Positions 47,830-53,018 of a stretch of 64,000 nucleotides of DNA are shown in pieces. Below the pieces are notes generated by a model. It saw nothing but the letters and a program-made list of their open reading frames with translations, was not told the origin of the DNA and searched no databases. Numbering within the stretch: position 1 is the first letter of the stretch; each line of letters starts with the position of its first letter. The translations under genes and the position numbers were made by a program. Source of the stretch: Lachnospiraceae bacterium (GTDB lineage: Bacteria; Bacillota; Clostridia; Lachnospirales; Lachnospiraceae); NCBI GenBank assembly GCA_029067205.1, contig JAIEEY010000080.1, positions 1 to 64,000 of the forward strand, in the 5' to 3' direction.

Positions 47830-48957
47830 CTAATTTTCGTTTTGCATTTTTTCCCTTTCTATTCCATAATATTGCATACAAATAACTGACATACATTTCT
47901 GATTAATCAAACCGACAATCCTATCTACAATCTTTCTAAATCTGAGTATTGACTCCAGCCACTCGCACACCATAGCTACGCCCAAAGAAATAAGCAACAA
48001 TATTGCGAAAGAGACAAAACAATTGCGATTATAAACAAACTCCCTCAAATATACCCACTGGATAAAAGAATGTGTCAGAAACATAAAATACGAATGCTTT
48101 CCCAAAAAGTAAAGGATATTTCCTGCAAGTGGCAGATTAATAATGTATCTCACAGAAAATATAAGTACCACCAAAGGGAAAAATGCCCAGCATAGCTCCC
48201 AGTACTTTCCATAGGGAAGATATGTATATAGTCTATATCCGATCCATAGACTTATAACTCCTGTCATAAATAAACCAAATTTCCCTTTTAAGTTAATACA
48301 AATATTTACAATGTTGTAATGGACTGCGATCATTCCTATCTGAAATGCGCACAAAAAACTATATGGATTTGTCCCGCCTAAAAAATCAAGTTTAAACAGT
48401 CGAAACATCACACCTGTAGCCGCAAAAATTATCCATAGATGCTTCTTGTGTCTGACTAAAAAAGGTGTCAAAACAATATAAATGACAGCCGCTCCCATAT
48501 ACCACCATGGCCCTATCATTGCCGGACTACCAAAAATACTTGCCAGACCACAAAAATCCAAAATAACATTCATACAGCCATCAAATATATTCGTTCCAAA
48601 GTACACTTTTATCGGCCTCTGATCAATCAGCATCGTAGCGAAAAATATTACGATATAAATAAACCACTAATCAGTCAGCAATTTTCTTACCCTACTTTTT
48701 ATCCAATCAAACTCTTCTTTATCCGTTCCTGAATAATCCAAGTATAAACCATATCCCGAAACAATCACATACAATGAAACACATATCTTGCATACCTTTG
48801 CCAGATTTACAATGTTATACTCTGGAAATGGGAAAAATGAAACATTTAACCCTGCCTCCCTAACCGTCTCCATATTCAAATAGAGATGATGCCAGAACAT
48901 CATCAATATCGCGATTCCCTTTACGGCTGTTGCCTGTCTTTTTGCGAACTGGCGCAT
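47830..48957 (-). pseudogene. acyltransferase (acyltransferase-3 family) interrupted by one in-frame amber codon
   Basis: ORFs 48667..48957 and 47830..48633 share one frame and read ...RVRKLLTD[TAG]WFIYIVIFFATMLIDQRPIKVYFG... across the TAG at 48667-48669. Confidence 0.85.
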
Positions 48958-48988: not shown

Positions 48989-51198
48989 TCAATATCTATT
49001 GCATATTTCCTTATATTCTTCATAGTCTCTCTGATTATAAAAATAATTTCTTTCGTACTTTTCAAGCTCGAAATACGGAAATATCTCCTCTGCCAAAGCC
49101 TTTCTTACAAGATTCCTTGTATCTTCGGAACTTACTGTATTATAATTAAATAAGCATTCTCTCAAAAGTATATTTATAAAACTCTTTTCAAAACATGAAT
49201 ATATATTTTTTTCTATTAATTGCTTTTTTAACTCTTTAAGCGCTTTAAAAAATTCTAATGGAGCAGTGTTTTTCTGCCCCTGTGTGCTTGCTTCATTATT
49301 GAAACGGTATGTCACAAGCGGTTCATTTCGAACACATGTCATTCGTTCCGCCAAAGCACATGCAGTTCTTACAAATAACACATCATTTGCATTTTTTATA
49401 TTCTGAAACCTTAATTGATTCCGCTTGATAAATTTCTGTTCAAATAATTTAGACCATGGACAGCCGGTTGTAATTTGAAATATTTTCTCGTTGATATCCA
49501 TTGCAGAAAAAACTTTTCCAGGTATCTCATTTTCACAGAGCACCCAGTCCATATGCTCTTTTTTCCCATTTGTCACATCCTCTCTATCCGCACCAAACAA
49601 ACATATTTGTGCCTTTTTATTTTTTGCATGATAGTATGCTAAATCACATAATTTAGGACTAAAGTAATCATCTGCATCTAAAAACAGTAAGTACTCCCCT
49701 TTTGCATACATCATCCCGTTATTCCTTGCGCTGCTCGCACCTTGATTCTCCTGGTTAATCACTTTAATCCTATTATCCCTTTGCTGATATTCCTTTAAAA
49801 TTTCCAAACTATTGTCTGTTGAACCATCATTTACACATATAATTTCAATGTTTTTCAGTGTCTGACAAAGCAGAGAATCCATGCATGCATTGATATACTT
49901 ACTGGCATTATATACTGGAATAATTACACTAACGCAGACTTTATTTCGCGAAATTATCATATTCACCCGATAGAATATATATGGTATTCCTTCCATTTTT
50001 TTGATCAGGAATTCCCCTAAATGATATATTCTTCTTGGTATATATGTTACTGATAACCCTAATTTGGCGTGTTTCAATTCTAGTTGACAAATGCATGTTT
50101 ACAAATTGCCATGGAAAGCTTTTAAATACGACAAAATAGGACGCATCTGTTTCTGTAATTTGTCAACTAATCATTGTGGATTTTGAAACACGCCCCTAAT
50201 TTATATGATATACTATTTTTCAACCGCTCATTTTCTTCTTGAAGCACACGCTCTTCTTCCTGAACTCTTTTCTGTGTTTCATACACCCACAAAATAAAGC
50301 CTATAATATGTTGTACAGGATAGCCCTCTAAAACTTCAAAAATATCATAGTATCCAATCTTCTCATTCATTGCATTCATCGCCGTTGTCTGTAGACTTGA
50401 CAAAAACTGTTCTATAACAATCATTTCATGCTTACTAAACTGACGTTTTGCCAGCATATCAACAATTTCTGTTATACAAATATAATATCCATATGCACTT
50501 TTAATTGGCTGTTTTGTTGTCATAACAGATCCTTCTCGTACACGACGCATGTAATAAGCTTTTTTCTTATACATGACCCTATGAGAACAGGTAATCACCT
50601 GAAAAGAAAATAAATTATCTTCATGAATAATCCCATTGTAAAATATAATATTATTACATTTTAGTACATCACTCTTAATTAACTGTAGCCATGGGGATAC
50701 CTTAAAATCGTCATTAATCAACATCTGGTAAAATAATTCCATTCCATCATATGTATCAGGATAATCTTCTTTTCTTACATAATAGGATTCATATTCAATA
50801 TTATCATTTTTTACTTCTTCTGTCTCAAAAAAGGCAATCGCATCAAAATATATACAATCCAAATTGTTCTCCATAGCTTGCGAGTATAAATTCTCCAAAG
50901 TTTCGGGCATTATATAATCATCGCTGTCAAGAAAGTATATATACTCTCCCTTTGTTTCTTCTAAGCCAGCATTTCTAGCAGACGATGCACCTCCGTTCAT
51001 TTTATTAATAATGTTGATTCTTTTATCCTCTGATGCCATTGTCTCTACTATTTGCATAGAAATGTCCGAGCATCCATCATTTACACATATAATTTCTATC
51101 TCTTTAAGAGTCTGCTTTTGAACAGATTCAACACATTCTGCAATATATTTTTCTACATTATATATTGGTATTATCACAGAAACTTTCACTTCACCCAT
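48989..51198 (-). pseudogene. tandem GT2-GT2 glycosyltransferase gene split by a MITE-like insertion
   Basis: ORFs 50167..51198 and 48989..50077 both carry GT2 motifs. Removing 50066-50194 plus one 8-bp duplication rejoins them in frame as ...SISYKLGLSVTYIPRRIYHL.... Confidence 0.85.
50066..50194. mobile_element. 129-bp MITE-like element with 12-bp TIRs and 8-bp target-site duplication
   Basis: TIRs ggcgtgtttcaa (50066-50077) / ttgaaacacgcc (50183-50194); TSD cctaattt at 50058-50065 and 50195-50202; subterminal pair tagttgacaaat / atttgtcaacta. Confidence 0.92.
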
Positions 51199-51251: not shown

Positions 51252-53018
51252 CTATTGCCGTTGTTCTTTAATAAATATCTGACAATAAAAGCAGTACCAC
51301 CCAACTAATAACGGCATGCATGCCATTAACGGAATCGTATATCTTATATATCCATTTACAGGAGATGCAATGCATACTAATATGTTCATAAACGGCGCTA
51401 CATACATTAAGATACCCTTTACCCTTTTTCTATATATCATGTAAGCCGCTAATACTAGTAAAAGCCATGTATATGTTGCCGGATTCATTAGTTGCGACAA
51501 TATGGGAAAGTTAAGCCACAACTCCGTATATGCTATTAGCACATCCCGAACCTCTCTGGGAAATAAATAATGTAGATAAAGATCTCCCCTTGCTATGGAT
51601 CCCTGTTGGATACCAAAATAATATTATTGGCCCATACTACTCCTAAACGGATAATAATACCTATAGCATCCTTCCAATGTTGCCTCAACATATATATGGA
51701 TGCTTTTTGAACATAGAATACCATGCCTTAAAGTATTCTTTTAGACCTTCTGTATTATACCTATATTGATTTTTAACAGCATCTGATATTTCCGGATTAT
51801 ATATAGCAGCAATTTGATCAATCGGCAGTATAGCATCTACCGCAGCTTTCTCTTCTTCTGTTATATCCTCTGACGCATATAAAAGATATCTTGCTGTTTG
51901 TTGAAAAGGAATAGATAACATTTCCTTTTCCGAACCTTTTACAACTCCCAAACGTTCTGGCAAAGCTACATCCGTAATAAACTATCCCAAAAAAACTTAT
52001 ACACAAAAGTAATATCCCAAACACTTCACGTTTTTCTCTTATCCACACCACAAGACATAGACATTGTGGCAAAACCAGATATATTCCATTCTTTCTGGTT
52101 ATACAAACAAGCAGGGATGAAAAAAACAAAATCATAAAGTCTTTTATCCTTAGTGGTTGTTTATTGCCTGCCTTAATACAGCAGTCGATATATACTACCA
52201 TAAAGAACGCAACAAAGCTGATGCCTATGATCATAAAAACAGAAAAAACTGCTGCCAGACCTCCAATAACAAAACTTTTTATCTCATAAATCAAATACCA
52301 TTGTTTCTTATAAAAGTATATTAATGCTATACTTACTACCAACTTATCTATTCCAATACCATTACATTCCCTCTGTAATGTGCTAATAAAGGAGGAGCCT
52401 TCATTGATTTGTCCATTTACTGATATTGCTATCCCAGTCAACATACCAGCAAGTATTGGACACACTTTAATATATCGTTTATAACCTTTCAGCCACAAAA
52501 AATAGGCGCCAAATATAGCGGTAATAATAGCTATTAACAATAGGCGTTCTCTTTGTTCTTCATTATTTCTAATCACCACTATACTATCTATCCTTATATA
52601 CCCTTTTCCTGAATAGTATAATCTTACTTCAAAATCGTCTATATTTTGTGTTACCCTGATTGAAGTTTTCTGAACGTTCTTTCCCCTGCTTAATGCAATT
52701 GACTTGTCCGCATTGACATGCTCTCCTTCTGCATAAATCTCCATTGAATGATTCCAGTCTGATTCATATTCAACAGCAACCGTGTAGCTTCCTTTCCTCA
52801 GCCTTTCATATGAGCCACGTAAAAATATTGTGTCATCCGCAACTCCACTGTTTTCATCAATATACCATATTCCGTCCTTCTGCTGCACAACAGCATTACC
52901 ACCATCCATATGATTAATAATCTCTCTTTGACTATATACTTGAACGTAAAAGCCCCAACCCACAAATAAATATAAATATTTGTAAAAAAACAATAATACC
53001 CATAGCCTTTGTTTTCAT
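51252..53018 (-). pseudogene. DUF6020-like membrane protein gene with several frameshifts and a nonsense codon
   Basis: Pieces in different frames: MKTKAMGIIVFLQIFIFICG..., YVQVYSQREIINHMDGG..., ALPERLGVVKGSEKEMLSIPFQQTARYLL..., KHPYIYVEATLEGCYRYYYPF..., NPATYTWLLLVLAAYMIY...ASPVNGYIRYTIPL. Confidence 0.8.

Follow-up and report, generated by a model that had tools for sequence, protein, structure and literature searches.

The 64,000-nucleotide stretch of Lachnospiraceae DNA analysed here (the window; from genome G000) contains a 129-bp non-coding sequence that is best explained as a MITE, a short non-autonomous DNA transposon with recognition ends only, which was mobilised in trans and inserted into a single tandem GT2-GT2 glycosyltransferase gene, splitting it in two (probability about 0.96). 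Evidence for this was provided by multiple copies of the element with distinct target duplications, by an empty site in a relative and by a larger element with shared ends. Two apparent GT2 genes in the annotation are thereby corrected to one broken gene. The MITE family to which the element belongs is new, although its kind is known; the event, while real, is ordinary and leaves general views unchanged, and it documents in this lineage a recently active, gene-breaking family that was not found described before. Features of the locus are listed in Table 1.

Table 1. Positions in the window of the MITE, its repeats and target duplications, and the two parts of the interrupted gene.
Feature	Position	Strand	Remarks
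MITE (non-autonomous transposable element), non-coding	50066..50194	.	129 bp; 7 full copies in G000, diverged copies in G002, G005, G022 and G423
Left terminal inverted repeat GGCGTGTTTCAA	50066..50077	+	Read in window sequence
Right terminal inverted repeat, + strand TTGAAACACGCC	50183..50194	-	Read in window sequence
8-bp target duplication CCTAATTT, left copy	50058..50065	.	Window sequence and comparison of copies
8-bp target duplication CCTAATTT, right copy	50195..50202	.	Single copy in the G013 empty site
Inner (subterminal) repeat TAGTTGACAAAT, left	50081..50092	+	Window sequence
Inner (subterminal) repeat, right, + strand ATTTGTCAACTA	50158..50169	-	Window sequence
N-terminal part of interrupted GT2-GT2 glycosyltransferase gene (PF00535 domain 1)	50203..51198	-	Apparent C-terminus ACFKIHND read from the element
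C-terminal part of the same GT2-GT2 gene (PF00535 domain 2)	48989..50065	-	Apparent TTG start (MKHA) in the terminal inverted repeat

The terminal inverted repeats (TIRs) match over 12 of 12 bp, as do the members of the inner inverted pair, and both pairs and the 8-bp duplication were found where the initial annotation had placed them. At the MITE spacing, the TIR pair occurred once in the window versus 0 times in 100 shuffles, and the TIR 12-mer occurred 32 times in the whole G000 genome versus 0 for the reversed control. At the window copy alone a 9-bp reading of the duplication (CCCTAATTT) is also possible, since each duplicate follows a C; the length of 8 bp was set by the other copies. 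The absence of coding capacity claimed for the element agrees with the ORF list, which holds no ORF of its own of at least 80 aa. A single strand of the element gives a strong fold (RNA z -4.8), since inverted repeats must fold; no terminator was found in the 129 bp, promoter-like sites were just slightly above chance, and an Rfam search returned nothing real. Several features that define a MITE were present: short length (about 50-500 bp) without a transposase gene, TIRs, a target duplication, multiple interspersed copies and an empty site in a relative.

The G000 assembly (5.64 Mb, 504 contigs; fragmented, with 8.7% contamination) holds 7 full copies of the MITE, six of them 100% identical and one 98%, together with 5 fragments at contig ends; recent spread is therefore implied by the six identical full copies. 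Additional copies with different duplications, which the initial annotation had proposed to look for, were thus found in the same genome: six full copies are each flanked by their own perfect 8-bp duplication (CCTAATTT, GAATTTTG, AGATTTTT, CTCCTTTT, GAATTTCC and CCACTTTC), no two of them alike. A further two duplications can be matched across contig breaks (C159/C43, CAAAAAAC; C437/C309, TAATTTAC), which fits insertions broken up by assembly and gives a total of 8 insertion sites with perfect, mutually different 8-bp duplications (6 within contigs, 2 across breaks). The seventh full copy, on C437, has unlike flanks in its own contig (TAATTTAC / TAAATTGG), and because its left octamer recurs at the right side of the C309 fragment it fits a chimeric join or recombination. 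Target duplications are 76% AT versus 58% for the window and contain a central A/T run, and these runs are longer than in random 8-mers from the window (0 of 10,000 samples). Some other copies have reading frames abutting both sides, for example those on C481 and C280; by our own reading of the sequence, rather than from a database result, the former frames appear transporter-like and the latter helicase-like, of HsdR type.

Diverged copies were found in three genomes of the same genus (G005, 88%; G002, 86%; G022, 79%) and in a second genus of the same family (G423:C79, 129 bp, with TTTCCCTT on both sides), with a mean column identity of 90% in the alignment of diverged copies. Perfect duplications are also present in G005, G022 and G423, and one diverged copy, G002:C118, is without one. 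Plasmid and phage records gave no match to the MITE sequence, viral contigs gave none to its right-end pattern, and the TIR sequence was not found in the literature searched except in one unrelated zebrafish paper. A 389-bp copy on G022:C7 (L111:2878-3266) was considered as a longer parent and rejected, as it is a MITE carrying a nested insertion of ~280 bp (AGTACAACGAA...TTCGTTGTACT) in a CTAG site; its outer duplication, GATTTTTA, is still perfect. Elsewhere in G022 (C34; L113:2904-3061), a 158-bp element has the identical 12-bp TIR and otherwise different sequence, and is flanked by CTAG, not by an 8-bp duplication.

Joining the flanks of the insertion restores, as had been proposed, a frame of 2073 nt with a single terminal stop, which reads through SYKLGLSVTYIP and has a product of 690 aa; the insertion adds 137 bp and results in a frame shift and stops. 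The apparent C-terminus of one ORF and the apparent start of the other are both read partly from the element, in keeping with their description as insertion artefacts. An empty site with an intact GT2-GT2 ORF of ~690 aa, which it had been suggested to seek in another strain, was identified when the joined product was searched against the genus: G013:C54:29711-31771 is a single open frame encoding 699 aa, with 69% identity across residues 1-687. Global alignment of the joined product with this protein is ungapped across the residues on either side of the junction (NSISYKLGLSVTYIP / NSISYRLGLSITYIP), and at the DNA level the window flanks align to G013 with a mere 7-base overlap in the target, the 129 bp having no counterpart (joined window flanks, TATAAATTAGGGTT, versus TATAGATTAGGGTT in G013). 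If the 129 bp were instead an ordinary, conserved intergenic spacer and the two GT2 genes were separate, each ORF would be expected to have its own GT2 domain, as each does; against this, identical copies lie at unrelated sites, the orthologue in G013 lacks the element and forms one frame, and the downstream start codon lies inside a TIR. The spacer reading is refuted by the G013 empty site and the copies elsewhere, and its probability is negligible. On these same two grounds, the two GT2 ORFs are read as halves of one broken gene, which was most likely inactivated; gene disruption is the simplest effect of the element. Two neighbouring genes are also split: an acyltransferase gene (PF01757) is in two ORFs (window 47830-48957, minus strand), and the gene for a DUF6020 protein occupies three ORFs that differ in frame (51252-52993, minus strand); the polysaccharide locus may be decaying as a whole, or these may be sequence errors.

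A second repeat in G000 is marked by the same 12-bp TIR and is represented by 5 left ends, 1 variant left end and 7 right ends. Nearly all of these reach a contig end after ~70-77 bp of repeat sequence, the pattern that collapse of a multi-copy element would give, and the interior is absent from the assembly; one left/right pair (C138/C272) has the common duplication AAAATTTA. The right end resembles that of the MITE, with the TIR followed by AGTTGACA at positions 27-34, and this core of the right inner repeat has an equal offset from the tip in the MITE, the larger element and a transposase relic in G002. At the left end only the TIR is in common with the MITE, which is therefore not a simple internal deletion of the larger element. 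The full-length insertion sequence (IS) with the same ends anticipated by the initial annotation is thus matched in part, by this larger repeat, which shares the TIR and has a right end like that of the MITE; the interior of the repeat is unassembled, and the parent family is for that reason unproven. Searches with the larger-element ends gave only chance-like, mostly low-complexity matches in roughly 400 genomes of the family and roughly 390 relatives. Nothing was found in viral contigs, plasmids and phages. At one left end (L053; G000:C37:3654), only the first 25 bp match, and a different sequence rich in hairpins (CTACCGGCTAAAGCCGGTAG) follows, which may be a further insertion.

The source of the transposase was weighed among three families. 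The best candidate, at about even odds, is an uncatalogued DDE-type family outside the listed IS families, of which a relic is found on G002:C10; such a driver would refine the explanation given above. G002 carries a correctly oriented end, GGCGTGTTTCAAA, accompanied by AGTTGACA exactly at positions 27-34. This end is 140 bp downstream of the stop codon of a transposase-like C-terminus, which is 51% identical over 74 aa to WP_012167171.1, an intact 491-aa homologue on Acaryochloris marina plasmid pREC1. Homologues of the relic protein are transposase-like proteins repeated on Acaryochloris plasmids, and the Acaryochloris elements have the end GGCTTTGTTCAGAAAT in three copies and probably GGCATGGTTTAAAAAC on pREC1. 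The pREC1 protein falls in no Pfam or NCBIfam family, with just sub-threshold IS256 and ISL3 matches, and contains stretches that we read as putative DDE motifs (GVDASSTYCYLL, DAAKGLRAGQ...GDVFHI and SSLVENLNSRLR). On the other side, the relic has lost its other end and target duplication, single 13-mer TIR matches arise by chance in this genus, and no transposase of this type was found in G000, an absence that the unassembled interior of the larger element would lead one to expect, although this is unproven. It is a tentative suggestion, at somewhat less than an even chance, that the MITE and its larger partner form an IS family, found in both this bacterial lineage and cyanobacteria, that has an uncatalogued DDE-type transposase, GGC...TTTCA-like ends and AT-rich target sites duplicated over 8 bp; the MITE ends are a handle by which the uncatalogued transposase family could be pinned down. 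On A. marina pREC4 (L167:1942-3417), an in-frame stop divides a transposase-like gene, which is annotated as two hypothetical proteins; the pREC1 homologue (L172) is whole at 491 aa and belongs to no Pfam or NCBIfam family. An IS701-like transposase on G022:C7 (L112:2001-3494; DDE_5, with NF049999 below cut-off) was rejected as parent, as it apparently has its own ends (ATACTTGAGAGTT / AACTCTCAAGTAT) and adjoins a MITE remnant of which the right half is kept and the left half is gone.

The initial annotation, otherwise borne out, had tentatively named ISL3, and an ISL3-family driver would fit the 8-bp duplication, which is not ISL3-specific, and the GG tips. An ISL3-type element in G010, of the same genus, likewise has 8-bp duplications, and the uncatalogued transposase itself has a weak PF01610 match (E 0.033). 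The TIR of the G010 element (GGTTCTTTCTGAACTT) differs from that of the MITE, however, and PF01610 was detected in just 2 of the 38 genomes of the genus (G010 and G023); no PF01610 transposase, with the MITE TIR or otherwise, was found in the MITE-bearing genomes of the genus (G000, G002, G005 and G022), and this family is an unlikely source. An IS6 (IS26/IS257)-type transposase was also considered, as IS6 elements have 8-bp duplications and GG tips with internal cTGTt and caaa, and two MITEs are on record for the family (PMC7986276). GGCGTGTTTCAAA contains TGTT and CAAA, but the only transposase that was detected next to an end of this type does not match IS6 and no IS6-like transposase was linked to the MITE ends, so that an IS6 driver is doubtful.

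In the favoured explanation, insertion of a MITE moved in trans, a transposase most likely supplied by the larger G000 element with the same ends would bind the MITE ends and insert the MITE at a staggered 8-bp cut in an AT-rich target, within the tandem GT2-GT2 gene of a surface-polysaccharide type locus. Gap repair would then create the 8-bp duplication, and the added length would shift the frame and bring in stops, leaving the former 690-codon gene as two ORFs, most likely inactive. We infer mobilisation in trans because no complete autonomous element or transposase with the MITE ends was found in G000.

Among known systems, the Acaryochloris plasmid transposase (WP_012167171.1) has a homologous relic beside the same end type in G002, with 37-51% identity over the compared C-terminal stretches; its host is distant and its TIR is partly alike. 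ISL3-family and IS6-family ISs share with the MITE the duplication length and GG tips described above; the ISL3-type TIR differs in sequence and no ISL3 transposase was found in the MITE-bearing genomes of the genus, and no IS6-like transposase was linked to the MITE ends. The 129-bp element differs from prokaryotic MITEs, as defined in PMC10969869, in that its sequence matched no plasmid or phage record and its driver is a candidate only. Like Chunjie in Geobacter, QMITE1/2 in Coxiella and MITEAba12 in Acinetobacter, it is shorter than 500 bp, has TIRs, a target duplication and no coding capacity, and combines an AT-rich target with interspersed copies and a foldable transcript.
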